DNA of 64,000 bases from Chryseobacterium scophthalmum. GTDB taxonomy: Bacteria > Bacteroidota > Bacteroidia > Flavobacteriales > Weeksellaceae. The notes below the pieces were generated by a model, which made no database searches, was not told the origin of the DNA, and worked only from the letters and a program-made list of their open reading frames with translations. The stretch lies in the NCBI RefSeq assembly GCF_900143185.1, contig NZ_FSRQ01000005.1:1-64000 (forward strand). Reading direction: 5' to 3'. Position 1 is the stretch's first letter. Every line of letters starts with the position of its first letter. Positions 49,467 to 64,000 of this stretch are shown one piece after another. The position numbers and the translations under genes are program-made.

Positions 49467-49491
49467 ATTTTTTATTTTTATTTGGTTGTAA

Positions 49492-49517: not shown

Positions 49518-49541
49518 GTGTAGAAGTGGATGGTGTGATGA

Positions 49542-49567
49542 GGGCGCGTTCCGTAGGAACGCTATCT
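49542..49567 (+). repeat. RAYT-linked palindrome, downstream copy 1
   Basis: GGGCGCGTTCCGTAGGAACG is followed by CTATCT. It lies next to the transposase stop codon and is inverted relative to the copies upstream of the gene. Confidence 0.8.
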
Positions 49568-49574
49568 CTAATTT

Positions 49575-50039
49575 CTAATCGTAAAATTCAAACAAATATT
49601 GTTCCTGAAATTCAATTTCAAAAGCATTTAAAAATTCTATATACTCTTCTTTAAAAGTTTTCTTTTTATGATGTAATTCTTGGTTTAAAATATAATTTAC
49701 AACTTGCTCTTTCTGACTTTTTGCGTAAGAAAATGCACCATAACCTTGTTGCCACCCAAAGTGATTTAGACATAGCTTTTTTTCATTGATAAAATTTGTT
49801 GATTCTGTTTTGACGGTTTTCACCAGATCTGAGATAGTAATTTGTAAATTTTTATAACTAAAAAAGATGTGAACATGATCCGGATTCGCATAAATAGCCA
49901 AAACTTTTTGCCCTTTATTATTGAAAATACCACAAATATATTTTTCAATTTCATCACGAACAGAATTTATAATTTTATTGTCTCTACCTTTTGTGGCAAA
50001 GACAAGTTGAATATAAACTTGTGTGTATGTGTTTGGCAT
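49575..50039 (-). CDS. REP-associated tyrosine transposase (RAYT, IS200-like TnpA)
   Basis: This 154-residue Y1 HUH-type nuclease has the motif 'PDHVHIFFSY' (HUH at about 54-56) and catalytic Tyr in 'YGAFSYAKSQKEQV' (about 98-110). It also shares the general beginning 'TYTQVYIQLVFATKGRDNKI' of Y1 transposases. Flanking palindromes (two on each side, inverted relative to one another) and the shortness of the gene indicate a RAYT rather than an IS200 with ends of its own. Such enzymes cut single-stranded REP hairpins and are usually domesticated rather than active transposases. It sits between two unrelated genes. Confidence 0.85.
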   Translation of the reverse strand: MPNTYTQVYIQLVFATKGRDNKIINSVRDEIEKYICGIFNNKGQKVLAIYANPDHVHIFFSYKNLQITISDLVKTVKTESTNFINEKKLCLNHFGWQQGYGAFSYAKSQKEQVVNYILNQELHHKKKTFKEEYIEFLNAFEIEFQEQYLFEFYD

Positions 50040-50052
50040 TTTTCACTTTTTT

Positions 50053-50076
50053 AGATAGCGTTCCTACGGAACGCCA
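50053..50076 (-). repeat. RAYT-linked palindrome, upstream copy 1
   Basis: This is the reverse complement of the downstream type, with AGATAG leading into CGTTCCTACGGAACG. It lies just upstream of the transposase start codon. Confidence 0.8.
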
Positions 50077-50102
50077 CGTTGCTAACCACTTTGTTTTCTA
50101 CA

Positions 50103-50128
50103 CAGATTGCATTCCTACGGAATGCCTC
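50103..50128 (-). repeat. RAYT-linked palindrome, upstream copy 2
   Basis: CAGATTGCATTCCTACGGAA followed by TGCC is a second inverted copy. A degraded third relative (AATCCCTAAAGAACGACGCT) follows at about 50140-50158. Confidence 0.7.
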
Positions 50129-50197
50129 TTCTGCAATAGAATCCCTAAAGAACGACGCTCGCTTCAAAGAAAATTCTTAGGATTTTAAATCAATAAT

Positions 50198-50887
50198 TTA
50201 TTTGTTCTTTAAAGCTAAAATATACTTATCAATATACAAATCTTTTTCTTTGGATTTGTACTGCTGAATATATCTCGGATGTTCTAAAACGGTCATTTTT
50301 TCAAACAGATGAGCTTCCTGATTTAGTTTTGAAATAAAATCGGCATTCTTTTTCCCTAAAATAAAAACTTCGGAAATATCAAGATTTAAACTGATGTGTT
50401 TTTTCAAAGAATCAATCATAAAATCTTTTACATCATTGAAAAGCTCTTTATCGTCGTAATAATTCGCATTAATCCAGTTTCCTTTTGATTTTCTTACAAT
50501 CGCCAACGGAAATGGAGAATTGATATAAATATCTTTGTAAAATTCATCTGCTCCTCCATAAGCAGCAATCATATCATAAATAAAAACTGAAGAAATTTCA
50601 TGCGTATAAGCAGATTCCATTTTAATTCCGCAGACATTTTCCAATCGTTTTGTATCGGTGAACGGAACTCCGGTAACTCCTGCTCCATGACGACTCGGGT
50701 TAATTCCAATTAAAAATTTTCTTTGATTTGAATCGTTGTAATATTTATGATAAAACTTTTCCATAACAACCATTGTTTCAGGGTTATCTAAATACGGATT
50801 CAAAACCTGAAAATCGTTCGGTAACTTTCCGGAATATTGTAAATTTCTATTAAACTCGATGACTTTATCAGCAAAAGTTGCATTCAT
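50198..50887 (-). CDS. SMUG2-like DNA glycosylase family protein (DUF4918)
   Basis: The protein has 229 residues. It has 'FLIGINPSRHGAGVTGVPFT' (about 57-76), the family's active-site-like segment at the position of the uracil-DNA glycosylase first motif, and 'VLEHPRYIQQY' (about 197-207) at the second. This matches the SMUG2/DUF4918 family of uracil-DNA glycosylase relatives. A role in base-excision repair of deaminated bases is likely. The ATG of the gene overlaps the stop codon of the upstream DUF4241 gene by one base. Confidence 0.8.
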   Translation of the reverse strand: MNATFADKVIEFNRNLQYSGKLPNDFQVLNPYLDNPETMVVMEKFYHKYYNDSNQRKFLIGINPSRHGAGVTGVPFTDTKRLENVCGIKMESAYTHEISSVFIYDMIAAYGGADEFYKDIYINSPFPLAIVRKSKGNWINANYYDDKELFNDVKDFMIDSLKKHISLNLDISEVFILGKKNADFISKLNQEAHLFEKMTVLEHPRYIQQYKSKEKDLYIDKYILALKNK

Positions 50888-51651
50888 TAGTTCAGAAAAA
50901 CAAAATTTTGTGGCTGATCATCTTCGCCTTCCTCATCGTCATCATCACTTAAAGCCAATTCGATATCAATGAACTGAATGTATAAGCCACAGATTTCTCC
51001 ATTTACATCGTAAGCAAAATATACAGGATAAGATCCGTCACCAAAACCGCTTGCAAACATAGGAATGTGATAATTTGTATTTGGAATTGTCCAGTTAATC
51101 CAATCTCCTGCATCTCTTTGATTGTTTGGATTTTCTTTATAGCTCTGAGCAAACAGTTTTGCAAAATAATCATCATAAATATTATCCACATTCAAATCAG
51201 CAATAAATTTATCAAATTCAGGAAGCGCTTCTGCATCTGCAATACTACCTAATCCTGCATCAACATGAAAACCGAAAAAGTCATCTTCTTTTACTCCATC
51301 CAAATTTTCATTTCCAATTAAAGCTTCCTGATAAATAACTGGTTTTTCATTAGTAAATTTCACCTTTACTGCAGCGTATCTATCACCCCAATCTTCAGAT
51401 TTTACAACAGCAATCGTTACTGGAAAATTTCCTTTTGGAGTTTCAATAAAATACGGTTTTTGTTTTGAATTAAGAAAAACCAAAGGATCTCTCACCACAA
51501 CTTTTCCGGAAGGCAACGAAACATTTCCTATTTCCATAACTTCCATTTTTTCACCTGCAATTTCGTCTAACGTGAAGTAAGATTCTAAATCTGTAGGACA
51601 AGTAAGAATATGTTTTGCTTCTGCATATTTCTGCATCCAGTTTTCTTCCAT
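50887..51651 (-). CDS. DUF4241 domain-containing protein
   Basis: The protein has 254 residues. It has the DUF4241 pattern 'TCPTDLESYFTLDEIAGEKM' (about 18-37), 'PLVFLNSKQKPYFIETPKGN' and 'GLGSIADAEALPEFDKFI'. The acidic C-terminus 'SDDDDEEGEDDQ' may act in binding. DUF4241 proteins are often found near toxins or immunity genes in other bacteria, but nothing here shows that role. It overlaps the glycosylase gene (ATG/TAG overlap), so the two are co-translated. Confidence 0.78.
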   Translation of the reverse strand: MEENWMQKYAEAKHILTCPTDLESYFTLDEIAGEKMEVMEIGNVSLPSGKVVVRDPLVFLNSKQKPYFIETPKGNFPVTIAVVKSEDWGDRYAAVKVKFTNEKPVIYQEALIGNENLDGVKEDDFFGFHVDAGLGSIADAEALPEFDKFIADLNVDNIYDDYFAKLFAQSYKENPNNQRDAGDWINWTIPNTNYHIPMFASGFGDGSYPVYFAYDVNGEICGLYIQFIDIELALSDDDDEEGEDDQPQNFVFLN

Positions 51652-51741
51652 GATAAAATATTTTTTGAATTGATTTTAAGTTTGAAAATAATGAATAAAA
51701 ATTAAGGCATGAAATCTGGAATGTGTTTTAACAAAAGATTA

Positions 51742-51776
51742 TAAAAAAACAGTGTAACAAAAATTGCTACACTGTT
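51742..51776 (-). terminator. terminator of the paa run
   Basis: AACAGTGTA and its perfect complement form a 9-base-pair stem with a loop of about 11 bases. It is followed by T7 on the minus strand and lies 29 bases past the paaZ stop codon. It marks the end of the phenylacetate unit. Confidence 0.85.
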
Positions 51777-51804
51777 AAATTGTTTTATTGTTAAATTTAA
51801 AATA

Positions 51805-54294
51805 TTAAATCAATCCAAACTGCTCAAAATGGTGAGTAAAATGCTTCTTATGCATCAACTCCCACATTTCTTTGTTTAATTTTCCGAACACAAAATTCAT
51901 ATGTTCTGCTTGTGGATTTTCTTTATAATAAATAGAGAATCTCTTCAAATTATCTAAGAAAGACTGTTTTGCAGCATCAAGATTTTTATGCTTTAATTCT
52001 AATAAAGTTTCATCTTCAGCCAAGAAAGGTGCAGGGAAATCTTTTGGCATTTTTCTGTGATTATACAGAGAATCTTGCCATTTTTCCAGCTGTTCTTCAG
52101 GAGTGAAACATTTGTCAGCTTCCGGTTCACCTAAACTTACCAAAACGCCATGTTCCAAATGCTCAATCATTTGCTGAGGAGACATTTTCCCCCAAGCTGG
52201 CTGAGTATTTTCAGATAATCCGTTTACAATTTTCTGAACATTTTTAAGATCAATAAAAGGAGAATGTTTAGCCACCAAAGTTAAAATTGTCGCTACGCAA
52301 ACTACCTCTTCTCTTTGGTTCACCACTTCCACCAACCATTTTACAACACCAGAAGGAATATTTCTTCCTTTTACTCCACGGTTGATCTTTTCTTTTGCCG
52401 TTAAATAAACCGTAATCGTGTCTCCTGCATAAACAGGTTTGAAGAAAGAACAGTTTTCTAATCCGTAATTCGCAATTACAGGACCTTTTTTACCAGAAAC
52501 AAATAATCCAGCTGCTGCGGAAAGAATGAAGTATCCGTGAGCAACGGTTTTATCGAAAATAGTTCCTGTTAAACTTGTTGCGTCTGTGTGAGCATAGAAA
52601 TGATCCCAAGAAACATTAGAGAAATTAACGATATCTGCATCAGTAACCGTTCTTCCTGCGGTTTCTAAAGAATCTCCAACTTCAACTTCTTCGAAATATT
52701 TTTGGAAAGGATGTTTGTCAGAATATTTTTTCTCAGCACCTTGCTGATAAACCTTTGTAATTGCAGTCAAAATATCTGGAGAACCTTGAATGGCTGTTTT
52801 CTGAAGAAAGAAATGAAGACCGTTCAAACCGCCCATTTCTTCACCACCACCTGCTCTTCCGGGGCCTCCATGCATCAAAGTAGGAAGTGGAGAACCGTGA
52901 CCTGTACTTTCTTTTGCATTGTCTCTGTTCAACACGAAAATTCTACCGTGCTGAGAAGCCATTTTCCATGAAGTTTCGGCTACAAATTTTTCATCATGAG
53001 AAATGATAGAACCTACCAAACTTCCTTTTCCTCTTTTTGCCAACGTAGCAGCTTCTTCCGCATCTTTGTAAGGCATCAACGTAGAAACCGGTCCAAAAGC
53101 TTCGACATCGTGAGAGATATTTTTCGTGAATGGAGAATCGTTTAAGAACAATTTCGGACTCATAAATGCACCATTTTCATAGTTTGCATCTACCAATTCG
53201 TGTTTTCCGTCATAGACAAGTTCATTTTCAGTTTTTAGAATATCAACTTTTCTTAAAACCTCATCATACTGCTGTTTTCCAACCAAAGAACCCATTCTTG
53301 TTTCTCTGCTTAATGGATTTCCGATTTTTGTCTGATCTAAAGCTTTAGATAAAGCATTCTGAACGTCACCAATTAAGTTTTCAGGAACAATAATTCTTCT
53401 GATTGCCGTACATTTTTGTCCAGCTTTCGTCGTCATTTCTGTACGAACTTCTTTGATGAATAAATCAAATTCAGGAGTTCCCGGTTTTGCATCCAATCCA
53501 AGAATTGAACAGTTCAAAGAATCTGCTTCCATGTTGAAACGAACCGCATTTCCAGCTACAGAAGGTAAAGATTTTAATTTTCTACCTGTATTTGCAGAAC
53601 CTGTAAACAATACAGAATCTCCGTCCTGAACGTAGTCTAAAATATTTCCCGGTTCACCACAAACCAATTGAAGTGCCCCTTCAGGAAGAACACCGCTTTC
53701 GATCATATCCTGAAAAACCGCATTCGTTAAGTAAGAACCAAACGGCGAAGGCTTCACAATTGAAGGAACACCTGCTAACAAAGATGTGGATAACTTTTCT
53801 AACATTCCCCAAACCGGGAAGTTATACGCATTAATTTGTACAGAAACTCCTTCACTAGGCGTTAAAATATGAGCTCCCAAGAAAGTTCCATTCGCAGAAA
53901 TCTTCTGAGTTTCTCCATCTACCCAAAACGGAGTGTTCGGAAGCATTCTTTTCGCCAAACCTGAATAGGTAAAGAAAGTACCAAAACCACCTTCAATATC
54001 TACCCAAGAATCTGCGTGTGTTGCTCCTGTTTTATATGATAATTCGTAATATTTTTTCTTTCTTTCTAAAAGGTAAAGCGCTACTTTTTTCAACATTTCA
54101 CCACGATCGTAGAATGTCATGGATGAAAGGTTTTTGTAACCTACTGTTCTTCCGTAGTCTAAAGCCTGTTCAAAATTCAGTCCTTCAGTATCCGAGACAG
54201 CAACCTGTTCTCCTGTTACAGCGTTGTACAAAGGAATTCCGTTTCCATTTCCTTCGACCCATTCGCCGTAGATATAGTTTTTTAACTTTTCCAT
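51805..54294 (-). CDS. paaZ: PaaZ: oxepin-CoA hydrolase / 3-oxo-5,6-dehydrosuberyl-CoA semialdehyde dehydrogenase with extra C-terminal DUF1569-like domain
   Basis: This 829-residue protein opens the oxepin-CoA ring and oxidises the resulting aldehyde in phenylacetate breakdown. Residues 1-520 are an aldehyde dehydrogenase with catalytic Cys in 'AGQKCTAIRRIIV' (about 295) and 'RFNMEADSLNCSILG' (the Glu region). Residues about 530-680 are an R-specific enoyl-CoA hydratase-like (MaoC) domain with 'SWDHFYAHTDATSLTGTIFD' and 'KTVAHGYFILSA'. E. coli PaaZ ends near 681. Here about 145 more residues follow, beginning 'GKMSPQQMIEHLEHGVLVSL' and ending 'HKKHFTHHFEQFGLI'. The histidine-rich pattern is that of DinB/DUF1569 four-helix domains. 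It is the last paa gene and precedes the terminator. Confidence 0.95.
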   Translation of the reverse strand: MEKLKNYIYGEWVEGNGNGIPLYNAVTGEQVAVSDTEGLNFEQALDYGRTVGYKNLSSMTFYDRGEMLKKVALYLLERKKKYYELSYKTGATHADSWVDIEGGFGTFFTYSGLAKRMLPNTPFWVDGETQKISANGTFLGAHILTPSEGVSVQINAYNFPVWGMLEKLSTSLLAGVPSIVKPSPFGSYLTNAVFQDMIESGVLPEGALQLVCGEPGNILDYVQDGDSVLFTGSANTGRKLKSLPSVAGNAVRFNMEADSLNCSILGLDAKPGTPEFDLFIKEVRTEMTTKAGQKCTAIRRIIVPENLIGDVQNALSKALDQTKIGNPLSRETRMGSLVGKQQYDEVLRKVDILKTENELVYDGKHELVDANYENGAFMSPKLFLNDSPFTKNISHDVEAFGPVSTLMPYKDAEEAATLAKRGKGSLVGSIISHDEKFVAETSWKMASQHGRIFVLNRDNAKESTGHGSPLPTLMHGGPGRAGGGEEMGGLNGLHFFLQKTAIQGSPDILTAITKVYQQGAEKKYSDKHPFQKYFEEVEVGDSLETAGRTVTDADIVNFSNVSWDHFYAHTDATSLTGTIFDKTVAHGYFILSAAAGLFVSGKKGPVIANYGLENCSFFKPVYAGDTITVYLTAKEKINRGVKGRNIPSGVVKWLVEVVNQREEVVCVATILTLVAKHSPFIDLKNVQKIVNGLSENTQPAWGKMSPQQMIEHLEHGVLVSLGEPEADKCFTPEEQLEKWQDSLYNHRKMPKDFPAPFLAEDETLLELKHKNLDAAKQSFLDNLKRFSIYYKENPQAEHMNFVFGKLNKEMWELMHKKHFTHHFEQFGLI

Positions 54295-54315
54295 AAAATA
54301 TTTTATATTTTAATT

Positions 54316-54416
54316 TAACGATGTATCAATCTAGCAGTTTACCAATGAGATGCTTCGAAAATCTCAGTATGACATTATGCAATTGTTAGATTTTTACATT
54401 GGTATATTGTTACATT
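54316..54416. repeat. octamer-array hairpin E1 (paaZ/esterase junction)
   Basis: The left arm is four tandem octamers (TAACGATG, TATCAATC, TAGCAGTT, TACCAATG). The right arm is their inverted counterpart, ending TATATTGTTACATT. The loop holds GAGATGCTTCG followed by CTCAGTATGACA, a relative of the module seen in E3 and E7. It reaches the stop codon of the esterase gene. Confidence 0.85.
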
Positions 54417-55243
54417 TATTTCGGTTCCTGGTACGGAAACAATTTCACTAAACCTTCATACAAACTTCTGTGAAGAATTGTTGCGTGATTGTCTGTTTCC
54501 ATCATTTTATATTCTATCGTCCAGTTTTTCTTGTTTGATTTTTTCAGAACATCATAGAAAGCTTCAGCATCTTTTACCATTACCGGGTGTTCCCCTTTTC
54601 CAACAGAAACATAAACGAATTTTTTAGTATCTGGAATTTTAGCTAACAATTGAGGAGCCTGTTTCAAGAGACTTTGATCATCCCACCATAAACTCGGACT
54701 GATGATAAAATAATTATTAAACATTTCAGGTTTTTTCAACAAAATTTCTGTTGCTAAAAGTCCGCCTAAAGATTGTCCGAATAAATATTTATCAGTTGTC
54801 TTAAACTGACTTTCGATATAAGGTTTTAATTCTTTCTCCAAAAAACTAATGAATTTATCAGAATGTCCTGTTGTAGGATAATCTTTTTGTAAATCTTTTA
54901 AATCCGTATGAAAAGTAAAATCTTTCTTTCGGTCAATATTCGCAATTCCCACCACAATAGTTTCCGGCATCGAATACATTTGATTAAAGAATTGAATCAA
55001 TCCTGTAACGTGAATGAAATCTTCGTTCATACTTCCATCCAAAAGATAGATGATCGGGTAAGATTTTGTTTTGTCGAAATTTTGTGGAAGATAAATGTTC
55101 AGAACTCTATCTTCATTTAAGATCTTAGACTTTATGGTTCTAATTTCTCCAATAGTCAATGGTTTTACATTTTTAGTCTGAGCGAAGGTCAGAGATTGAA
55201 ATGCAAGCAGAATACTGCAGAAAATGAGAAGTTTTTTTAACAT
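54416..55243 (-). CDS. secreted alpha/beta-hydrolase, esterase family
   Basis: The protein has 275 residues with a signal peptide (1-21, ending LTFAQ), so it is exported or periplasmic. The fold is that of the enterochelin esterase/IroE group: 'YPIIYLLDGSMNEDFIHVTG' near 62-81, nucleophile elbow 'FGQSLGGLLATEIL' (Ser at about 157), and a catalytic-His region 'MMETDNHATILH' near 251-262. It lies within the paa run, between paaY and paaZ. It has no obvious place in phenylacetate breakdown, but could supply phenylacetate by cleaving phenylacetyl esters. That is speculation. Confidence 0.82.
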   Translation of the reverse strand: MLKKLLIFCSILLAFQSLTFAQTKNVKPLTIGEIRTIKSKILNEDRVLNIYLPQNFDKTKSYPIIYLLDGSMNEDFIHVTGLIQFFNQMYSMPETIVVGIANIDRKKDFTFHTDLKDLQKDYPTTGHSDKFISFLEKELKPYIESQFKTTDKYLFGQSLGGLLATEILLKKPEMFNNYFIISPSLWWDDQSLLKQAPQLLAKIPDTKKFVYVSVGKGEHPVMVKDAEAFYDVLKKSNKKNWTIEYKMMETDNHATILHRSLYEGLVKLFPYQEPK

Positions 55244-55261
55244 ATTTAAATTTAAAGTGGG

Positions 55262-55855
55262 TTATTTCACATCATCCCAAATGCTGTAATCAACAACTTT
55301 TGTAGGAATCTGCTGAACATATTCTGTAAACGGTTCGCAAGGTAAAATCGCATCTTTTCCTTCTCTTGCCAATTCCTGATAAAGTTTTGTTCCTTCTGTT
55401 TTCCATTTGATCATTTCATCGGAAACATCACGGATAATTTTTGCAGGACTTCCAACAATTAATTTTCTTGCATCACATTTGAAATTCGCAGGAACAAAAG
55501 CCAAAGCACCGATAATGCATTCATCACCGATAACCGCTTTATCCATTACGACAGCATTCATTCCAACCAAACAGTTTCTACCGATATGTCCGGAATGAAT
55601 AATCGCACCGTGACCGATGTGTGCAGATTCTTCCAAAATTGTTTCAATACCCGGAAAAACATGAAGCGTACAGTTTTCCTGAACATTCGCGCCGTCTTTA
55701 ATGATAATTTTACCCCAATCGCCACGAATTACTGCATTGGGACCGATATAAACTTCTTCACCAATCTCTACATTTCCAATAATTACCGCCTGTGGATGAA
55801 TATAAGCAGAAGGTTTGATGATGGGGCGAATACCGTGATATGAGTAAATGTTCAT
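55262..55855 (-). CDS. paaY: PaaY-like hexapeptide-repeat thioesterase / gamma-class carbonic anhydrase family protein
   Basis: The protein has 197 residues with a left-handed beta helix of hexapeptide repeats ('SAYIHPQAVIIGNVEIGEEV', 'GPNAVIRGDWGKIIIKDGAN', 'GHGAIIHSGHIGRNCLVGMN'). The His triplet (about 66, 82 and 87) can bind zinc as in gamma carbonic anhydrases. The C-terminal helix and 'FTEYVQQIPTKVVDYS' tail match PaaY, which removes dead-end CoA thioesters. It lies between paaJ and the esterase gene. Assignment to PaaY rests on similarity and context. Confidence 0.88.
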   Translation of the reverse strand: MNIYSYHGIRPIIKPSAYIHPQAVIIGNVEIGEEVYIGPNAVIRGDWGKIIIKDGANVQENCTLHVFPGIETILEESAHIGHGAIIHSGHIGRNCLVGMNAVVMDKAVIGDECIIGALAFVPANFKCDARKLIVGSPAKIIRDVSDEMIKWKTEGTKLYQELAREGKDAILPCEPFTEYVQQIPTKVVDYSIWDDVK

Positions 55856-55880
55856 AAAATTTTTTGTTAAAAAATTAATG

Positions 55881-55958
55881 TAACAATGTATCAGTTTACC
55901 AATGTAACAATTGAAAACTGCGCGCTAATTGTTACACTGATACATTGTTATATTGGTA
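55881..55958. repeat. octamer-array hairpin E2 (paaY/paaJ junction)
   Basis: The left arm is TAACAATG, TATCAGTT, TACCAATG, TAACAATT. The right arm is the near-perfect inverse. A 14-base loop (GAAAACTGCGCGCT) lacks the central module. This is the most perfect of the eight hairpins. Confidence 0.88.
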
Positions 55959-55972
55959 AATTATTGAAAAAG

Positions 55973-57181
55973 TTATACTTTTTCAATCACCATTGCATAA
56001 CCTTGTCCGACACCGATACAAAGGGTACACAATGCATATTTTTTATTTTGCTTTTGAAGTTCAATAGCTGCAGAACCGATGATTCTCGCACCGGAAACTC
56101 CAAGTGGATGACCAATTGCAATCGCTCCACCGTTTGGATTTATTCTTGAATCGTCATCCTGTAAACCTAAACTTCTTGTTACTGCTAAAGATTGAGCAGC
56201 AAATGCTTCGTTTAGTTCGATTACATCCATATCATCTAATGAAAGATCTAATCTTTTCAATAGCTTCTGAGTTGCTTCAACAGGACCGATTCCCATGATT
56301 CTTGGTTCAACACCGGCAACAGATGAACCTAAAATCTTAGCTTTTGGTTTTAGACCATATTTTTTTACAGCTTCTTCACTTGCAAGAATTAAAGCAGCTG
56401 CTCCGTCATTCATTCCTGAAGCATTTCCTGCTGTTACTGTTCCGCCTTCTTTTCTGAAAGCTGGACGAAGTTTTCCTAATCCCTCCATTGAAGAAGTTGG
56501 CTTGATAAATTCGTCTGTATCGAAGATCTTTGGTTCGCCTTTTCTTTGTGGAATTTCAACTTTCACAATTTCTTCCGCCAATCTTCCGCTTTCTTGAGCT
56601 TTAGTTGCTTTTTGTTGAGACCAAAGCGCAAATTTGTCCTGGTCTTCACGGCTGATGTTGTGCATTTCTGCTAAATTTTCAGCAGTGTCGCCCATCGCAT
56701 CTACGCCATACATTTCTTTCATTTTCGGATTGACAAATCTCCATCCGAAAGTGGTATCAAACATCTGACTATCTCTACCAAAAGCAGTACTAGGTTTTGA
56801 CATCACATAAGGCGAACGCGTCATATGCTCAACTCCACCTGCGATGTAAATTTCACCTTCTCCAGAAGCAATCGAACGGAAAGCATTTGCCACTGCAGAC
56901 ATTCCTGAAGCGCACAATCTGTTTACTGTTTCACCTCCGATCTTATAAGGAAGACCAGCCAATAAAAGTCCCATCCTTGCTACGTTTCTGTTATCTTCAC
57001 CTGCCTGATTAGCACATCCGAAAATAACGTCCTCAATTTCCTCAACAGGAACTTCAGGATTTCTTGCCACAATTTCTTGAATAACAATCGCCGCCAAATC
57101 GTCTGCACGAACTTCTGAAAGTCCTCCAGACAATTTTGAAATGGGTGTTCTTACATAATCTATGATATATACGTTGTTCAT
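55973..57181 (-). CDS. paaJ: 3-oxoadipyl-CoA thiolase (PaaJ)
   Basis: This 402-residue thiolase cleaves 3-oxoadipyl-CoA (and 3-oxo-5,6-dehydrosuberyl-CoA). The N-terminal catalytic Cys is in 'VNRLCASGMSAVANAFRSIA' (near 90), the catalytic His in 'GGAIAIGHPLGVSGARIIG' (near 354), and the second Cys in 'LCTLCIGVGQGYAMVIE' (near 386). Length is standard. The context in the paa run supports PaaJ over other acetyl-CoA acyltransferases. It starts 63 bases after the end of the DUF6624 gene. Confidence 0.94.
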   Translation of the reverse strand: MNNVYIIDYVRTPISKLSGGLSEVRADDLAAIVIQEIVARNPEVPVEEIEDVIFGCANQAGEDNRNVARMGLLLAGLPYKIGGETVNRLCASGMSAVANAFRSIASGEGEIYIAGGVEHMTRSPYVMSKPSTAFGRDSQMFDTTFGWRFVNPKMKEMYGVDAMGDTAENLAEMHNISREDQDKFALWSQQKATKAQESGRLAEEIVKVEIPQRKGEPKIFDTDEFIKPTSSMEGLGKLRPAFRKEGGTVTAGNASGMNDGAAALILASEEAVKKYGLKPKAKILGSSVAGVEPRIMGIGPVEATQKLLKRLDLSLDDMDVIELNEAFAAQSLAVTRSLGLQDDDSRINPNGGAIAIGHPLGVSGARIIGSAAIELQKQNKKYALCTLCIGVGQGYAMVIEKV

Positions 57182-57244
57182 AATTTTTATTTGAAAAATT
57201 TAAGAATGAGAAATTCTGAAAATTACTATATTCTCTTTTTCTAT

Positions 57245-57940
57245 TTATTTGTTTTTATTTCTTATTTCTAAAACCTGTTGTAAAGTATAAGGTTCGTATT
57301 TAAAGTCCTTCCCGAACATTCTTTCAGCATCTTCCTCAATAGTAGAATCAAATCCGGCCTCTTTTCTTCTTTTATTTACATTTTTAAGATCTTTAACAGG
57401 CCATACAAAATTGATAAAAACCTGTTTCCCATCTTTATCCTTTGTCATTTCTCCTTTTCCCTGTGTTCCGTAGATCTGTTCTTTGTTTTCATTCATCAGA
57501 TATCTGTCTTCCATCATCGCAACCCATGTAAAAGGAATTTCTTTCTTTTTTCCAGCTTCCTTAATGAGAGGCAGATATTTTCCAATCTTTGTTGAATGTT
57601 GAATGACATACCATGCCGCCTGATTCGTAGGCTCTCCTACCAATGTTTTGCCTGGGTAGCCATATTGAGAAATAATGTTTTTAATTTTCTGCATATTCAG
57701 GCTGTCGTGTTCCGCAACCAATTGCCAGTTTTTCTTTTCAAACTCTTCTTTATCAATATTCAGATCTTTCAGTAATTTATCCTTTTTTTCTGGAGTTATT
57801 TCGGAGTCAAAAAGCATTCTGTAGCCCTGATCTACTTTCATGATTTCATCGAGTTCTTTTTTCAAAACTTCGTTTACTTTCTGCTGAGCATTCATCAGAA
57901 AAGTTAAAAGCGTGAAAAGCAGTAAAAACATTTTTCTCAT
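57245..57940 (-). CDS. DUF6624-type secreted protein
   Basis: The protein has 231 residues with a signal peptide (1-18, ending LMNAQ). The conserved-looking core is 'ISQYGYPGKTLVGEPTNQAA' (about 90-109), then 'WYVIQHSTKIGKYLPLIKEA' and 'MMEDRYLMNENKEQIYGTQG'. This fits the DUF6624 family, common and scattered in Bacteroidota. No paa role is known; its position between paaI and paaJ may be coincidental. Function unknown. Confidence 0.75.
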   Translation of the reverse strand: MRKMFLLLFTLLTFLMNAQQKVNEVLKKELDEIMKVDQGYRMLFDSEITPEKKDKLLKDLNIDKEEFEKKNWQLVAEHDSLNMQKIKNIISQYGYPGKTLVGEPTNQAAWYVIQHSTKIGKYLPLIKEAGKKKEIPFTWVAMMEDRYLMNENKEQIYGTQGKGEMTKDKDGKQVFINFVWPVKDLKNVNKRRKEAGFDSTIEEDAERMFGKDFKYEPYTLQQVLEIRNKNK

Positions 57941-57967
57941 ATTGTTTAAATTTGATGGTTGGTGCTT

Positions 57968-58381
57968 TTACAAATCGGTTACTTTTTTTCCGATTTTATA
58001 GACTGTTCCGACAAATTTTGCAATCAATTCTTCGTTTTGATTCGTAATTTTAATGTCGTAAACAGCGGTTTTTCTTGTATCGTTTACCAAGATACTTTCT
58101 GCTCTGAAAATATCACCCTCTTTTCCTGCTTTCGTAAAATTGATGATACAGTTCAATGCAACAGCTGCATCTCCGGAATTGTTGGACGAAAATGCCAATG
58201 CAGAATCCGCAAAAGCAAACGTAACGCCTCCGTGAACGGTTTTCAACCCATTAATCATTTCCTTTTTGATGGGCATTTCGAGTAGACAATAATTTTCTTT
58301 TACTTCGATCATCTTGATATTCATCCATTGGGAAAAATAATCCTGATCAAACATATATTCTGCAACCTGTCTTGGATTCAT
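57968..58381 (-). CDS. paaI: PaaI-type acyl-CoA thioesterase
   Basis: The protein has 137 residues with a hot-dog fold. It has 'INGLKTVHGGVTFAFADSAL' (about 43-62; His-Gly-Gly with the downstream Asp as in PaaI), followed by 'VNDTRKTAVYDIKITNQN'. It hydrolyses hydroxyphenylacetyl-CoA and related dead-end esters in the pathway. It follows the small hypothetical gene by 2 bases. Confidence 0.92.
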   Translation of the reverse strand: MNPRQVAEYMFDQDYFSQWMNIKMIEVKENYCLLEMPIKKEMINGLKTVHGGVTFAFADSALAFSSNNSGDAAVALNCIINFTKAGKEGDIFRAESILVNDTRKTAVYDIKITNQNEELIAKFVGTVYKIGKKVTDL

Positions 58382-58383
58382 TT

Positions 58384-58698
58384 TTAATTTCTGCTTGTTA
58401 TTTCTTCATATAATTCGTCCACCAATTTGTCATAAACACTCATGGTTTTACCGAGAATTATCTGCTCGTATGAAAGGTCTTCTGAATTTGATGGATTTTC
58501 AGTTGGATAAGGAGCATTTAAATTTATACCGTCTTCATTGGCAATTCTTTTGATCAGCTCTTTATATTTTTCATTAAATCTACCCAATAACTCAAGCTTT
58601 TCTTTATCATCGTCTATTGAAGAAAGTTCCTGAATTAAATATTCTTTTTCAATGAGAAGCCTTGTTTCTAACTCGGCGCGAAATCCATCTATATCCAT
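58384..58698 (-). CDS. small hypothetical protein
   Basis: The protein has 104 residues, acidic and helical, beginning MDIDGFRAELETRLLIEKEY and containing 'DKEKLELLGRFNEKYKELIK'. No signal or membrane segment. I do not recognise a family. Its tight spacing to paaI (2 bases) implies translation in the same message. It starts just after the E3 hairpin. Confidence 0.6.
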   Translation of the reverse strand: MDIDGFRAELETRLLIEKEYLIQELSSIDDDKEKLELLGRFNEKYKELIKRIANEDGINLNAPYPTENPSNSEDLSYEQIILGKTMSVYDKLVDELYEEITSRN

Positions 58699-58707
58699 TT
58701 TTTAATG

Positions 58708-58806
58708 TAATAATTTAACAATGTAGCAGTTTACCAATTGAGATTCTTCGCTTTGCTCAGAATGACAGACAAATTGCGACATTGTTAGATTGGTATATTG
58801 TTACAT
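58708..58806. repeat. octamer-array hairpin E3 (hypothetical gene/paaH junction)
   Basis: Left arm TAATAATT, TAACAATG, TAGCAGTT, TACCAATT; the right arm is the inverse and overlaps the paaH stop codon (the TAA is part of TAACAATA on the minus strand). The loop is GAGATTCTTCGCTTTGCTCA followed by GAATGACA, the best copy of the central module. Confidence 0.88.
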
Positions 58807-59934
58807 TTTACGAAGTAACGGGCTTTGTCTGTATCTTTCTTCCTGATATTCTTCGTAAAGACTTTGAAGGGTTTCGGAGATCTTTGCATATCCAATTTCT
58901 TTTCCCCAAGCCAATAATCCCTTTGGATAATTCACTCCTTTTTGCATTGCCAATTCTAAATCTTCATCATTCGCAACACCTAATCTTTTTGCTTCAACTG
59001 CTTCATTGATCAACATCGAAATAATTCTTAAAAATATTTGTTGATAAAGAGCTTCATCTTTTTGAGCAACCGGTTTTACAGCATCTTCACTATAATCGTA
59101 GAAACCTTTTCCGGTTTTTCTGCCGTGAAGTTTTGCTTCAGACATTCTTTGCTGAAGGAGAGATGGTTTGTATTTCGGGTCGTAGAAATATTCGTTGTAA
59201 ACCGTTTTTGTTACTGAGAAATTGACATCAACTCCAATTAAATCCATTAATTCAAAAGGGCCCATTTTGAAGTTTCCAATTATTTTCATAGCATCATCAA
59301 CCTGTTCTACAGTGGCGATATTTTCTTCAACAATTCTCAAACCTTCACCATAGTAAGGACGAGCAATTCTGTTAACGATAAATCCTGGAATATCCTTTGC
59401 AATAACTGGAATTTTACCCCAATCTTTCATCAGATTATAGATTTTTTCCGCTAAAGATTTTTCTGTCAGTAAAGATGGAATAACTTCAACTAAAGGCATC
59501 AAAGGAGCCGGATTAAAGAAGTGAATTCCGATGAAACGTTCCGGTTTTTGTAATTCCGCACCAAGAGAGGTGATGGAAATAGAGGATGTATTGGAACCAA
59601 TTACACAGCTTTCAGAAACGTGTTTCTCTAATTCTGTGAAAACCTTGGTTTTAATTTCTTTGTTTTCAATGATAGCTTCGATTACTAATTCGCAATCTTT
59701 GAAGTCTTTCAATTCTGTAGCAATGGAAATGTTAGTTAAAATTTCAGTCATTTTCTCTGCCGAAATTTTTTGTTTATCAACCAATTTGGTTAATGTTTTT
59801 TCCAAACCTACAGTTGCCGTTTCTACTTGTTTTGCATTGGCGTCATAGACCCAAACTTTGCATCCGTTCGTTGCGGCTACTTGTGCGATGCCAATTCCCA
59901 TCGTTCCGGCACCGATAATTCCTACATTCGTCAT
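58801..59934 (-). CDS. paaH: 3-hydroxyacyl-CoA dehydrogenase PaaH
   Basis: This 377-residue enzyme begins MTNVGIIGAGTMGIGIAQVA; a longer frame to 59952 runs through the E4 repeat and is rejected. The NAD-binding GxGxxG is at 8-13, 'IGIHFFNPAPLMPLVEVIPS' with the catalytic His region near 130, and 'IPGFIVNRIARPYYGEGLRI' near 175. The C-terminus contains a second 3HCDH helical domain. It oxidises 3-hydroxyadipyl-CoA. The start codon lies 4 bases from the E4 hairpin and the stop codon is inside E3. Confidence 0.93.
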   Translation of the reverse strand: MTNVGIIGAGTMGIGIAQVAATNGCKVWVYDANAKQVETATVGLEKTLTKLVDKQKISAEKMTEILTNISIATELKDFKDCELVIEAIIENKEIKTKVFTELEKHVSESCVIGSNTSSISITSLGAELQKPERFIGIHFFNPAPLMPLVEVIPSLLTEKSLAEKIYNLMKDWGKIPVIAKDIPGFIVNRIARPYYGEGLRIVEENIATVEQVDDAMKIIGNFKMGPFELMDLIGVDVNFSVTKTVYNEYFYDPKYKPSLLQQRMSEAKLHGRKTGKGFYDYSEDAVKPVAQKDEALYQQIFLRIISMLINEAVEAKRLGVANDEDLELAMQKGVNYPKGLLAWGKEIGYAKISETLQSLYEEYQEERYRQSPLLRKM

Positions 59935-59938
59935 AATG

Positions 59939-60006
59939 TAACAGTGTATCAATGTAACAATGCAACAATCACTGTTAAACTGCTACATTGGTACATTGTT
60001 ATATTA
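59939..60006. repeat. octamer-array hairpin E4 (paaH/paaG junction)
   Basis: Left arm TAACAGTG, TATCAATG, TAACAATG; the right arm is the inverse (TAACAATG, TACCAATG, TAGCAGTT in reading of the minus strand). There is no central module. It leaves only a few bases to the paaH start codon. Confidence 0.85.
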
Positions 60007-60010
60007 ATTC

Positions 60011-60811
60011 TTATTTTCCTTTATAATTAGGTTTTCTTTTTTCTAAAAATGCTTGTACTCCTTCTTTGAAGTCTTCTGTTTCTGCAGCTTCTTGTTGAAG
60101 ATCGCCTTCCAATTCCAATTGTTCTTTCAATGTGTTATCGTAAGAATTGGCGAATGCTTTTTTGGTTAATTTTAAACCAACAGTCGGCATATTGGATACT
60201 TTTTCTAAAATTTCCATTGATTTTGAATTAAATTCTTCTTCAGTGAAAACCTCAGCTACCAAACCATAAGCTTTTGATTCTTCAGCAGACAGTTTTTTTC
60301 CTGTAAATGCTAAGTAATTTGCCAATTGTCTCCCCAATAATTTAGGTAAAAAATATGTACCTCCTGTATCAGGAATTAATCCAATATTTGAAAATGCCTG
60401 AGAGAAATACGCTTTATTATTAGCTAAAACAAAGTCACAAATTAAGGCTAACATTGCTCCAGCTCCTACAGCCGGACCGTTTACCAAAGCAACAACCGGT
60501 TTTCTGCAACGGGTAATTTCAAGCACCAAAGGATTGTAATAATCTGTTACAATTCTTCTGATGATGTCGTTATCATGATGCTCACTACCCTGAACAAATG
60601 CATCATCCAAGTTCTGACCAGAACAAAAAGCTCTTCCTCGCCCTGAAATCGCCACACATCTTACTGTAGGATCATCACTACATTCTTTAATAAAATCTTT
60701 TAAATCTCCCAAAGATGGCTTTGTAAGCGCATTCATCGTTTCAGGCTGATTGAGGTAAGCAATTTTAAGCTTTCCGTCAAAATGTGATTCAATATCAAGT
60801 TGTGTGTACAT
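60011..60811 (-). CDS. paaG: PaaG-type 1,2-epoxyphenylacetyl-CoA isomerase (enoyl-CoA hydratase family)
   Basis: The protein has 266 residues with a crotonase fold. It has the oxyanion-hole pattern 'GRGRAFCSGQNLDDAFVQGS' (near 56-75) and 'GPAVGAGAMLALICDFVLAN' (near 106-125). The catalytic-Asp region is 'SNIGLIPDTGGTYFLPKLLG' (near 137). In the paa run this is the isomerase converting the epoxide to the oxepin. PaaF (2,3-dehydroadipyl-CoA hydratase) is not separately visible, so this protein might do both jobs, or PaaF may be elsewhere. Confidence 0.88.
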   Translation of the reverse strand: MYTQLDIESHFDGKLKIAYLNQPETMNALTKPSLGDLKDFIKECSDDPTVRCVAISGRGRAFCSGQNLDDAFVQGSEHHDNDIIRRIVTDYYNPLVLEITRCRKPVVALVNGPAVGAGAMLALICDFVLANNKAYFSQAFSNIGLIPDTGGTYFLPKLLGRQLANYLAFTGKKLSAEESKAYGLVAEVFTEEEFNSKSMEILEKVSNMPTVGLKLTKKAFANSYDNTLKEQLELEGDLQQEAAETEDFKEGVQAFLEKRKPNYKGK

Positions 60812-60882
60812 AGTTTTTTAATTTAAAGATTAAATTATTTAAAAATTCAAAGATTTAATAATGCACTAATTTAGTCATAATG

Positions 60883-60968
60883 TAGCAATTTACCAGTCTA
60901 ACAATGCAACAATTGTAATGTCATGCTGAATATACTGGTAAACTGTTACATTGTTATATTGCGACATT
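60883..60968. repeat. octamer-array hairpin E5 (paaG/paaD junction)
   Basis: The left arm starts TAGCAATT, TACCAGTC, TAACAATG, CAACAATT. The right arm is the inverse, with TACTGGTA, AACTGTTA, CATTGTTA. A short loop (about 18 bases, ending CATGCTGAATA) may be a degenerate remnant of the module. Confidence 0.82.
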
Positions 60969-60972
60969 AATT

Positions 60973-61452
60973 CTAGTGGCATTTAAAATAATCAAAAGGT
61001 TCTAAACAGTCTAAACATTGATACGAAGCCTTACATAAAGTAGACCCGAATCGGCTGATCTGTTTTGAATTCATCGAACCACAACGTGGACATTTTTTAG
61101 GTTTCCCAATGTGATGTTCGTCGGCTCCTTTTTCGGGAGGTGAAATTCCGTAAACACGAAGTTTTTCTCTCGCTTCATCTGTCAGCCAATCTGTCGTCCA
61201 AATCGGAAACATTTTGGTAACTACTTTCGCATCCCAACCGTTTTCTTTCATCAATTTGATGATGTCTTCTTCAATGGTAAACATAGCGGGACAGGCAGAA
61301 TAAGTCGGCGTAATCGTTACTTCACAAGAATTCTCGCTCGTAATTTTCGCTTCTCTCACAATGCCCAATTCCACAATATTGATTACCGGAATTTCCGGAT
61401 CGGGAACGAGTTCTAATATTTCTAAAGGATTTTTCAATTTCAAATCTAACAA
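60973..61452 (-). CDS. paaD: 1,2-phenylacetyl-CoA epoxidase subunit PaaD
   Basis: The protein has about 159 residues with an MIP18/DUF59 fold ('LELVPDPEIPVINIVELGIV' near 14-33). The C-terminal zinc-binding segment has 'CPRCGSMNSKQISRFGSTLC' and 'YQCLDCLEPFDYFKCH'. PaaD is needed for full epoxidase activity, probably in iron or iron-sulfur handling. The annotated start is TTG at 61450-61452, which lies inside the E6 repeat; another TTG at 61441-61443 is outside it. No ATG is available. Confidence 0.9.
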   Translation of the reverse strand: MLDLKLKNPLEILELVPDPEIPVINIVELGIVREAKITSENSCEVTITPTYSACPAMFTIEEDIIKLMKENGWDAKVVTKMFPIWTTDWLTDEAREKLRVYGISPPEKGADEHHIGKPKKCPRCGSMNSKQISRFGSTLCKASYQCLDCLEPFDYFKCH

Positions 61453-61514
61453 TTTAACAATGTATCAATGTAACAATCATTGCTAGACTGTTAGATTGAT
61501 ATATTGGTACATTT
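61447..61514. repeat. octamer-array hairpin E6 (paaD/paaC junction)
   Basis: Left arm TAACAATT, TAACAATG, TATCAATG, TAACAATC; right arm the inverse after a 5-base loop. No central module. The start region of paaD lies in the foot of this hairpin. Confidence 0.85.
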
Positions 61515-61516
61515 TA

Positions 61517-62266
61517 TTACCAAGTACATCCCGGATATGCTCTCTGCATATATTGCAATTCACAAAGCATAAATCCGAAATATTCTGTATGATATCCTGT
61601 TCTTGATTTTGGTTGCATGAAAGGGTTTGCAGGATATTCTAAACCGAAATCTGTAAAATCTTTTTGTGTAATCGCTAAAAACTCTTCGTAAAGAGCATCT
61701 GCATTTGGAGCAATATTTAAAGCTACCAAATCATCTTCTCCTTCTGTTTTTGCGAATAAACCTTTTGTGTATTCCCAAATATTTTCAATCGCTTTTTCTA
61801 AACGGGATTTACTTTCTTCCGTTCCCTGAGCAAAAATTTTCATCCAAGAAGCAGTATGAGTATAGTGATATCTTACTTCTTTCAAAGACTTCTGAGCAAT
61901 TGCAGAAAGTTCTTCATTTGTAGAATTTGATAATGCTTCATACATCAACTTTTGATACACCGAAAAAACGTAAACTTTTAAAATCGTCTGAGCATAATCT
62001 TCGTTCGGAAGTTCTGTCCAGTGTGCATTTACATATTCGTGTTCGTATCTTAGGAAAGCTAAATCATCTTCGCTTTTTCCGTTGTCAATAACTCTTGAAG
62101 CATAAACGTAAAAATTGTTTGCCTGACCTAGTTCATCCAAAGCAATGTTTGTTAATGCAATATCTTCCTCCAAATAAGGACCTTCACCGCACCACGCAGA
62201 CAAACGCTGTCCCATAATGAAACTGTCGTCTGCAAGTTTTAATAAATAATTATATAATGGGTTCAT
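61517..62266 (-). CDS. paaC: 1,2-phenylacetyl-CoA epoxidase subunit PaaC
   Basis: This 249-residue ferritin-like protein is the non-catalytic partner of PaaA in the epoxidase. It shows the family features 'EDIALTNIALDELGQANNFY' (near 34-53), 'ALSNSTNEELSAIAQKSLKE' and the helix-rich 'FAQGTEESKSRLEKAIENIW'. Length matches. It lies between paaB and paaD with an AT-rich 7-mer hairpin on the paaB side. Confidence 0.93.
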   Translation of the reverse strand: MNPLYNYLLKLADDSFIMGQRLSAWCGEGPYLEEDIALTNIALDELGQANNFYVYASRVIDNGKSEDDLAFLRYEHEYVNAHWTELPNEDYAQTILKVYVFSVYQKLMYEALSNSTNEELSAIAQKSLKEVRYHYTHTASWMKIFAQGTEESKSRLEKAIENIWEYTKGLFAKTEGEDDLVALNIAPNADALYEEFLAITQKDFTDFGLEYPANPFMQPKSRTGYHTEYFGFMLCELQYMQRAYPGCTW

Positions 62267-62271
62267 TTTTA

Positions 62272-62334
62272 TAGAATTTAGAAATTAGAGGTTAGAAATT
62301 AGACTAAATTCTAGAATCTAACTTCTAACTTCTT
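62272..62334. repeat. 7-mer-array hairpin in the paaC/paaB junction
   Basis: TTAGAAA, TTAGAGG, TTAGAAA and TTAGACT on the left are followed by an inverted array (CTAACTTCTAACTTC) on the right. This is the same design as the octamer elements, with another unit. It does not carry the central module. Confidence 0.82.
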
Positions 62335-62336
62335 TA

Positions 62337-62618
62337 TTACATATTTTTTACATCGTTTGGAATGTCGTAGAACGTCGGGTGACGGTACAATTTGTCATCA
62401 GCAGGATCAAAGAAAGCTTCTTTATCAATTCCTTCTGAAGTCACGATATATTTACTTGGAACAACCCAAACTGAAGTTCCTTCTTTTCTTCTTGTATAAA
62501 CGTCTCTTGCATTCTGCAAAGCCATTTCTGCTGTTGGTGCCTGTACAATTCCAACGTGTTTGTGAGATAATCCCGGTTTAGTCTGAATAAACACTTCCCA
62601 CATATCTAAATTTGCCAT
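62337..62618 (-). CDS. paaB: 1,2-phenylacetyl-CoA epoxidase subunit PaaB
   Basis: The protein has 93 residues from MANLDMWEVF (62618), because the longer frame to 62663 is repeat-derived. The conserved core is 'MWEVFIQTKPGLSHKHVGIV' followed by 'APTAEMALQNARDVYTRRKE' and 'GTSVWVVPSKYIV'. PaaB bridges two PaaAC heterodimers in the epoxidase. It follows PaaA after E7 and precedes paaC. Confidence 0.93.
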   Translation of the reverse strand: MANLDMWEVFIQTKPGLSHKHVGIVQAPTAEMALQNARDVYTRRKEGTSVWVVPSKYIVTSEGIDKEAFFDPADDKLYRHPTFYDIPNDVKNM

Positions 62619-62633
62619 AAATAAAATTAAATT

Positions 62634-62731
62634 TAACAATGTATCAATGTACCAGTTTACCAATGAGATGCTTCGACAAGCTCAGCATGACAATGATTGT
62701 TACATTTTTACATTGGTATATTGTTATATTG
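62634..62731. repeat. octamer-array hairpin E7 (paaB/paaA junction)
   Basis: Left arm TAACAATG, TATCAATG, TACCAGTT, TACCAATG; right arm the inverse, overlapping the paaA stop codon, which is the TAA of TAACAATA on the minus strand. The loop carries GAGATGCTTCGACAAGCTCA followed by GCATGACA, a copy of the central module. Confidence 0.88.
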
Positions 62732-63662
62732 AAATTTTTTCTTGTTTTTCTGCAAAAGCTATCGCTGCCTCTTTTACCCAAAGGTTTTCCTGCTGTGCTT
62801 TTACTTTTGTCTGCAATCTTTTCTTATTACAAGGTCCATTTCCTTTTAAGATCTCCATGAACTCATCCCAAGGAAGTTCTCCGAAATCATAATGTTGTCT
62901 TTCCTCGTTCCATTTTAAATCTTTATCCGGGACAGTTAATCCTAAGAATTCAGCCTGAGAAACGGTAACGTCGATAAATCTCTGACGAAGACTGTCGTTA
63001 CTTTCTCTTTTTACTCTGTAATTCATAGAAATTTTTGAGTTTGGTGAACTGTCATCATTTGGACCAAACATCATTAAAGCCGGCCACCAGAAACGATTTA
63101 ACGAAGCCTGAGCCATTTCTTTCTGTTGCTTTGTACCACGACAAAGTGCCATCAAAATCTCGTAACCTTGTCTTTGGTGGAAAGATTCTTCTTTACAGAT
63201 TTTCACCATCGCTCTTGAATAAGGACCGTAAGAATTCCCCATCAACATTACCTGATTCATAATTGCAGCACCATCAACCAACCAGCCGATTGCGCCGATA
63301 TCTGCCCAACTCAATGTCGGATAATTGAAAATACTTGAATATTTCGCTTTTCCTTCTAACATATCGTCGTAGGTAGCATCTCTGTCCGCTCTGATGGTTC
63401 CGTTTCCTAGCGTTTCAGTTGCAGAATACAAGTATAAACCATGACCTGCCTCATCCTGAACTTTAGCCAAAAGAGCCATTTTTCTTCTCAAAGAAGGCGC
63501 TCTGGAAATCCAGTTGGCTTCCGGCAACATTCCGACAATCTCAGAATGCGCGTGCTGTGAAATCTGACGAACCAATAATTTTCTGTAATCATCAGGCATT
63601 ACATCTTTTGGTTCTACTTTATTTTCGTCGTGTACGTATTGTACAAATTTTTCTAAATCCAT
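62724..63662 (-). CDS. paaA: 1,2-phenylacetyl-CoA epoxidase catalytic subunit PaaA
   Basis: The protein has 312 residues with a ferritin-like four-helix core and di-iron site. Its metal-ligand region is '[20 protein letters not shown]' (about 67-86), and '[20 protein letters not shown]' (near 145) has the second E-x2-H. The usual ligands of the BMM-like di-iron fold are therefore visible. It adds the epoxide to phenylacetyl-CoA using electrons from PaaE. Length and neighbours (E, B, C) match the standard paaABCDE order. Confidence 0.95.
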
Positions 63663-63675
63663 AATTTTTCCAATT

Positions 63676-63743
63676 TAACAATGTATCAGTCTAACAATGT
63701 ACCAATGATTGTTACACTGGTAAATTGATATATTGTTACATTA
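63676..63743. repeat. octamer-array hairpin E8 (paaA/paaE junction)
   Basis: Left arm TAACAATG, TATCAGTC, TAACAATG, TACCAATG; right arm the inverse directly after a single base. It is a near-continuous perfect hairpin without central module. Confidence 0.88.
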
Positions 63744-63749
63744 ATTTAA

Positions 63750-64000
63750 TTATACATCATAATTAAGCATCACCACATTCGTTGTCGGGTGACATTGACA
63801 GGTAAGAACGAAGCCTCTGGCTACTTCTTCTTCGGTAAGCGCGTAGTTTTTTTCCATGAAAACTTCTCCTTCGAGAACTTCGGCTTTACACGTACAACAA
63901 ACTCCTCCTTTGCAAGCAAAAGGTACAGGAAGATTGTCTTTCAATGCTTTATCTAAGATACTCTCTTTTTTAGAATTAAGGTGGAACGAATATTCATCAT
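63750..64000 (-). CDS. paaE: 1,2-phenylacetyl-CoA epoxidase reductase PaaE (partial, 3' end)
   Basis: The frame runs off the right edge of the window, so only about 83 C-terminal residues are seen. They form a plant-type 2Fe-2S ferredoxin domain with 'PFACKGGVCCTCKAEV' (Cys-x4-Cys-x2-Cys) and the last Cys in 'VLTCQCHPTT'. This is the domain that in PaaE passes electrons from a flavin domain (outside the window) to PaaA. Position next to paaA confirms the call. Confidence 0.92.
   Translation of the reverse strand, partial: DEYSFHLNSKKESILDKALKDNLPVPFACKGGVCCTCKAEVLEGEVFMEKNYALTEEEVARGFVLTCQCHPTTNVVMLNYDV

Follow-up and report, generated by a model that had tools for sequence, protein, structure and literature searches.

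The 64,000-nt stretch of DNA analysed here (the window; Chryseobacterium scophthalmum, contig NZ_FSRQ01000005.1, positions 1–64,000) contains a paa operon that runs on the minus strand from paaZ to paaE (51805–64000) and also includes an esterase gene, a DUF6624 gene and hypothetical genes. The gene paaE (from 63750) extends past the window. Gene names were partly taken over from an earlier reading of the sequence, and the domains were checked. Eight junctions between these genes (54316–63738) each carry two inverted arms, and each arm is made of four octamers of the form TANCARTN. By position, these elements are E1 (paaZ/esterase, 54316–54412; arms 54316–54347 and 54381–54412), E2 (paaY/paaJ, 55881–55958; arms 55881–55912 and 55927–55958), E3 (hypothetical/paaH, 58708–58803; arms 58708–58739 and 58772–58803), E4 (paaH/paaG, 59939–60001; arms 59939–59970 and 59970–60001), E5 (paaG/paaD, 60883–60964; arms 60883–60914 and 60933–60964), E6 (paaD/paaC, 61447–61509; arms 61447–61478 and 61478–61509), E7 (paaB/paaA, 62634–62726; arms 62634–62665 and 62695–62726) and E8 (paaA/paaE, 63676–63738; arms 63676–63707 and 63707–63738). 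The outer unit of E7 runs into the end of the paaA open reading frame (ORF; 62724). E4, E6 and E8 are loop-free. The loops of E1 (AGATGCTTCG..CTCAGTATGACA, degenerate), E3 (GAGATTCTTCG..CTCAGAATGACA) and E7 resemble repetitive extragenic palindromes (REPs).

A preliminary description of the window had reported inverted arrays at these eight junctions, with units of constant length but drifting bases and about four units per half, and all of this was borne out. In the octamer, positions 1, 2, 4, 5 and 7 are near-invariant, position 6 is A or G, and positions 3 and 8 vary. In the general layout, AAT[GT] plus four units and the four inverted units plus nATT enclose a loop of between 0 and about 50 nt. 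A fifth unit was found on the inward side in none of 88 elements, and on the outer side in 21 (5') and 13 (3') of the 88. The palindrome GAGATTCTTCG..CTCAGAATGACA, which forms a separate structure within several loops, occurred at nine places in the genome (up to two mismatches; reversed control: none). The claim that octamer hairpins fill the paa gaps stands for the eight junctions but not for the rest of the operon: the paaC/paaB spacer (62267–62336) contains a hairpin of another family with TTAGAA/TTAGAG units (family G; mRNA-strand z −4.3), and the octamer hairpin is absent from the esterase/paaY (22 nt), paaJ/hypothetical (67 nt), hypothetical/paaI (31 nt) and paaI/hypothetical (6 nt) gaps. 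A ninth, degraded array of four units, one of them mutated, lies downstream of paaZ (51762–51793, minus strand).

The arrays were far above chance level. The window contained 17 arrays of three or more units, in contrast to none in ten first-order Markov shuffles, two of which contained one two-unit run each. The proposed folding of the spacers into stems held for most of them. On the mRNA strand, folding was non-random for E2 (z −5.2), E3 (−3.1), E4 (−5.3), E5 (−2.95), E6 (−3.9) and E8 (−3.8), but weak for E1 (−1.1) and E7 (−1.75). Folded as DNA on the plus strand, E2–E6 gave z values of −2.6 to −6.0, and E1, E7 and E8 gave −1.7 to −1.9.

The octamer element is not specific to the paa operon. 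In the whole C. scophthalmum genome, a three-unit pattern gave 60 + 59 matches, compared with 9 + 5 for the reversed pattern, and at least about 30 elements were read in context. At least about 22 of them are outside the paa operon, three with a single recognised arm; the density noted in the operon is indeed unmatched elsewhere in the window, yet the genome holds these further copies. The genes beside them (20 proteins looked up; names inferred from Pfam) were ordinary and included purM-purN-purH, the indole-glycerol-phosphate synthase gene, ftsZ, an AAA-DUF58 pair, and fatty-acid/acyl carrier protein genes, which we take to be flexirubin-like. The octamer pattern was present in 36 of 36 genomes searched from the same genus and, outside the family, in 2 of 23 from the rest of the order. 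In a sample of the family, 20 of 20 same-genus genomes had a match, compared with 59 of 128 other genomes, with a patchy distribution across the other genera. A stricter pattern retrieved 96 stretches (92 Chryseobacterium, 3 Elizabethkingia, 1 Kaistella) from a genome collection in which relatives close to the genome of the window may be missing. Pure tandem expansions of TAACAATG were seen in two genomes of our set (G012 C4:141205–141315 and G009 C3:310480–310526; G and L numbers denote genomes and loci) and are perhaps slippage products.

Placement was determined for 132 distinct elements in 80 of the 96 stretches, with ORFs and starts called mechanically; 109 were flanked by genes on both sides and 23 were at locus edges. 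None of the 132 lay inside an ORF. The genes around the 109 elements were co-directional in 104 cases, divergent in 3 and convergent in 2. Among gaps of 60–400 nt, 94 of 97 with an element were co-directional, compared with 207 of 247 without one. A median of 8 nt separated the elements from the stop codon upstream, and one of 14 nt from the start codon downstream. In co-directional elements, the stop distance was at most 14 nt in 94 of 104, and the start distance was 10–16 nt in 56 of 104 (mode 11), with some long start distances. The sequence 3' of the stem was A-rich (49% A, 39% T) and not a U tract. Exceptions in the C. scophthalmum genome were L035, between divergent genes, and L032 and L046, which overlap short, doubtful ORFs.

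Orthologous junctions were often occupied by hairpins of unrelated sequence while the long spacer was kept. A PaaC match was found in 21 relatives of the same genus, and 20 of their paa regions (all except that of G021) were compared. Families, mostly with units of 7–8 nt, were assigned by eye and by word counts. Families A (TANCARTN), B (AATTTGAR), C (TGTAMAA), D (RGCTTTT), E, F and G (TTAGAAR) occurred at the same paa junctions, and TCAGATW was a further unit type among the replacing families. The paaC/paaB junction had six families in 21 genomes, plus one short spacer, and paaB/paaA had A in 14 genomes and B in six, with z < −2 in 20 of 20 genomes on the antisense and 14 of 20 on the sense strand. 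At paaZ/esterase, all 13 genomes with a usable spacer had A. The esterase/paaY and paaI/hypothetical spacers were short in most genomes. On a tree of seven paa genes, parsimony required at least 48 family changes over ten junctions, compared with four changes between long and short spacers (paaZ/esterase of G020 was labelled A by hand; spacers >300 nt and unassigned families were excluded), although 48 is not a count of origins, since a family change may be the transfer of an existing allele. In the two sister species G018 and G001, six junctions carry B where C. scophthalmum has A, and paaC/paaB carries B where it has G, while paaZ/esterase has A in all three. The C. scophthalmum operon looks as though its hairpin family had changed in concert. 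Such hairpins of other families in sister species were beyond the single-window view of the preliminary description. The paaJ/paaI spacer of G017 and the purM/purN spacer of G026 (L103) apparently mix A octamer units with B units.

The purM/purN junction showed the same turnover. The purN gene was present in 40 of 40 genomes, and 30 purM/purN loci were read, with six families and no empty junction: 15 A, 5 E-like, 5 with a long palindrome alone, 2 G, 2 B and 1 C. One of the A spacers continued into the long palindrome and one had an additional stretch before purN. The long palindrome, which begins AG(G/A)AGCTT(A/G)ATCCCGCTTTCCGC, replaces the octamer hairpin in L099, L100, L119, L125 and L127, and stands in series with it in G009 (L105). 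For the 29 spacers short enough to be folded, z was below −2 on the sense strand in 23 and on at least one strand in 25; it was so on neither strand in G009, G023, G024 and G027. Upstream of purM, the flanks of C. scophthalmum and G001 are 98.6% identical, whereas the spacers, 94 nt each, are unrelated: an A hairpin in the former and an E-type hairpin in the latter (sense z −4.4 and −3.8). The corresponding spacer had a z of −5.9 in G018 and was 26 nt long in G024. As this spacer is 199 nt downstream of the preceding ORF and holds a TAAATTTG word, which we presume to resemble a Bacteroidetes promoter, it is perhaps not an operon junction but a 5' leader.

Across 26 clusters of orthologous junctions (pairs with a flank identity <75% excluded), 594 distinct spacers comprised 377 A, 203 other and 14 short ones, and more than one named family was found in 16 of the 26 clusters. 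Of the 203 non-A orthologues of A junctions, 131 (65%) folded with z < −2 on one strand. The claim of the preliminary description that the elements form stems, are dispersed and vary in presence among relatives was supported by both the genome search and the comparison of the same junctions in related genomes. The arrays are neither absent from the rest of the genome nor strictly conserved in relatives.

Within a family, the spacers were conserved by junction. Elements mostly had their best match at the same junction in another species (A, 71 of 84; B, 36 of 43; C, 12 of 15). The median similarity of A elements was 0.71 at the same junction across species, compared with 0.60 between junctions within one genome. 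Alleles specific to a junction were common to distant species: the B allele of G018 at paaB/paaA was 97% identical to that of the distant G007, and at paaC/paaB C. scophthalmum and G017 shared 74 of 74 letters while their adjoining four-fold sites were 57% identical. Of the ten junctions, five were tested, and at each of these the same-family spacers were more identical than the adjoining four-fold sites (means 0.65–0.81 versus 0.50–0.64; the pairs are non-independent). The spacers are therefore constrained or else swapped in very short pieces. Flank-identity profiles for recombination tracts revealed no reliable difference between same-allele and different-family pairs; their far windows reach neighbouring spacers.

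The turnover of families at a kept spacer suggests that a gap may need a hairpin without needing a particular sequence. The explanation we favour, at a confidence just short of even, is that short, exchangeable hairpin cassettes occupy a slot in polycistronic transcripts that extends from just past the stop codon to, mostly, 10–16 nt before the next start. TANCARTN would be one of several families that take each other's place at a given junction from species to species, the slot remaining filled. In the mRNA, the hairpin would stand as a barrier between cistrons, shielding or separating those on either side from nucleases or ribosomes, and would leave the start-codon region open. Exchange could proceed by homology-assisted replacement of segments, plus occasional copying between junctions. 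A wider proposal, which we regard as possible but doubtful, is that operons of Chryseobacterium and its kin have 'hairpin slots' in which selection keeps a hairpin of about 70–130 nt while its family is exchanged wholesale from an interspecies pool of junction alleles; the shared 7–8-nt grammar would then be the trace of one building or diversifying process. If slots of this kind exist, an operon can preserve its structural punctuation even as the letters that form it are entirely replaced, and sequence alignment would miss such marks. Close relatives with near-identical genes offer a natural allelic set of hairpins for a single junction, suited to testing intercistronic hairpin function. The findings also pose the question how repeat families without a common sequence share a 7–8-nt unit grammar and replace one another so cleanly.

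Several observations weigh against the barrier explanation, as does the caution on the parsimony count given above. The preliminary description had suggested an RNA processing or stability signal; the stop-to-start placement between co-directional genes agrees with this, but RNA-strand and covariation tests gave it little support. In the 88 elements used for base-pair and U-tract tests (16 of 104 with poor arms were excluded), the transcript strand had no overall excess of G·U pairs (113 G·U versus 169 A·C; 47 versus 48 at 24 C. scophthalmum loci), although at the five fixed positions G·U was slightly above A·C (33 versus 18). The sense strand folded better than the antisense strand in just 94 of 233 junctions. 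Compensatory pairs were rare (16, compared with 258 one-sided breaks and 107 changes to G·U), and the arms matched at variable positions less than in shuffles between elements. The fixed letters lack the drift expected of paired bases, which points to a sequence constraint. The tight stop and start spacing could also arise if elements inserted into spacers of normal, short length and selection spared the region around the start. In addition, co-directional gaps of 60–300 nt in 80 loci folded with z < −2 in 198 of 290 cases, and in 118 of 202 (58%) for non-A gaps. The margin between 65% and 58% is small, indicating that hairpins are common in the long gaps of this genus and weakening the argument from retention. 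Strand asymmetry, covariation and sense/antisense folding were thus mostly negative as proof of an RNA function: placement favours action on the transcript, and the direct tests mostly do not. We also considered an active mismatching of the two arms (0.356 versus 0.477 when unoriented), but the effect shrank upon orientation (0.356 versus 0.407, and 0.388 versus 0.419 in a larger set, z −3.8) and was rejected, as much of it, though not the whole, reflects a mixture of two arm types that occur in either orientation.

Since the RNA tests were mostly negative and hairpins are common in long gaps, a REP-like mobile repeat is a serious rival, and we consider it a real possibility, if a less likely one. 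Several families of selfish repeats similar to REPs or miniature inverted-repeat transposable elements, each moved by a putative enzyme that recognises imperfect DNA hairpins, would enter AT-rich operon spacers; insertions sparing the stop and start regions would survive, newcomers would displace older copies, and a benefit for the host would be unnecessary. The suggestion of a mobile element in the preliminary description agrees with the dispersal, variable presence and both orientations of the elements (14 of 26 flipped on the plus strand; 65 of 88 flipped relative to transcription in a sample baited with one arm). Strands that are equally stable, or more so on the antisense side, fixed letters conserved without compensation, nested REP-like loops, a tandem duplicate in L186 and short-spacer orthologues (e.g., L124 and L102) fit as well. 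On the other hand, no transposase was linked in the inspected loci: octamer doublets were within 1.5 kb in 3 of 30 loci with a Y1 transposase, a sample that does not cover every Y1 match, and none occurred at 48001–51700 around the Y1 gene of the window. Inspection of 14 short-spacer cases by eye revealed no clear target duplication, short states are rare beside family changes, and elements at the same junction in different species are more alike than those at different junctions of one genome.

A DNA-level array, on whose tandem TANCARTN units a sequence-specific nucleoid or regulatory protein would act while arm pairing is incidental, appears improbable to us. Five of eight letters near-invariant over many loci and unpaired variable letters would suit it, but a single protein could hardly serve all the unrelated words that replace the octamer at the same junctions, and the slot runs from a stop to a start codon. 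Hairpins located at cistron ends could also be intrinsic terminators or attenuators that determine the polarity of the operon; their AT-rich stems, the usual lack of a U tract (12 of 88 have TTTTT in the 14 nt that follow the stem) and the mere 2 of 109 placed elements between convergent genes make this very unlikely. Least credible is neutral slippage, in which short tandem units arise and invert during replication in tolerant spacers. Pure tandem expansions such as the TAACAATG run in G012 C4 do exist, but the same grammar recurs across the 36 of 36 genus genomes searched, same-family spacers exceed four-fold identity, and arms have four units.

The Y1 gene of the window (49575–50039, minus strand) is IS200/IS605-like, and its flanks (49467–49574 and 50040–50197) contain palindromes (AGATAGCGTTCCTACGGAACGC and relatives) with a GTAGGAA core. 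Near the paa regions of relatives, a full-length Y1 match was located about 1 kb past the G001 region, and the G004 and G007 regions had weak, partial matches nearby. A link of the octamer elements to Y1 transposases was unsupported in the loci examined. Strong hairpins at 19085–19204 (z −5.6), between convergent genes, are probably a bidirectional terminator. At positions 386–467 (plus strand), a near-threshold match to the Flavo-1 RNA was found with Rfam (35.9 bits; gathering score 42). At the octamer elements, Rfam 15 returned just miRNA and snoRNA matches far under the gathering score.

The preliminary description knew of no repeat with this design, and we likewise found no description of the TANCARTN repeat in the open PubMed Central literature, a search with subscription journals outside its reach. 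The nearest kind are REPs and their inverted doublets (REPINs), dispersed intergenic imperfect palindromes that form hairpins in single-stranded DNA or mRNA and are associated with REP-associated tyrosine transposases (RAYTs; PMC3116915, PMC3733652, PMC2817692). The octamer elements are likewise dispersed, extragenic, palindromic and multicopy. However, a REP has a GTAG or CGTC tag adjoining a 5–13 bp stem (PMC3733652), whereas the octamer elements have 32-nt arms ending in AAT[GT]TAnC...GnTAnATT, with no such tagged short stem upon inspection. Moreover, their arms are four degenerate octamers, about 30 copies are present, several unrelated word families share the junctions, and no Y1 (RAYT) gene was linked to them in the loci inspected. 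The TAACTGA heptamers of Beggiatoaceae, for which a post-transcriptional role was proposed (PMC4679880), are also short tandem words closely upstream of start codons, but they are direct repeats of one word, with one indirect repeat mentioned, whereas the octamer elements have paired arms. The intercistronic, protective mRNA hairpin of malE-malF (PMC5927463) is a stem-loop between co-transcribed genes and serves as the model for the function we propose. Microdiversity or dimorphic loci of bacterial genomes, for which homology-assisted illegitimate recombination was proposed (PMC2884548), resemble the junctions described here in that short variable segments are replaced in place between conserved flanks; in Chryseobacterium, unlike in these loci, both segments are usually short-word hairpins in stop-to-start slots with interspecies alleles. 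The nearest precedent for the swap itself is the P6b stem of the Nostoc trnL intron, built on Class I TDNGATT or Class II NNTGAGT heptamers (PMC4476775): a hairpin of degenerate 7-nt units in which the whole stem swaps its word while the structure stays. That stem is at one site in a group I intron, whereas the octamer hairpins and the larger number of families that replace them occupy many operon junctions throughout the genus.

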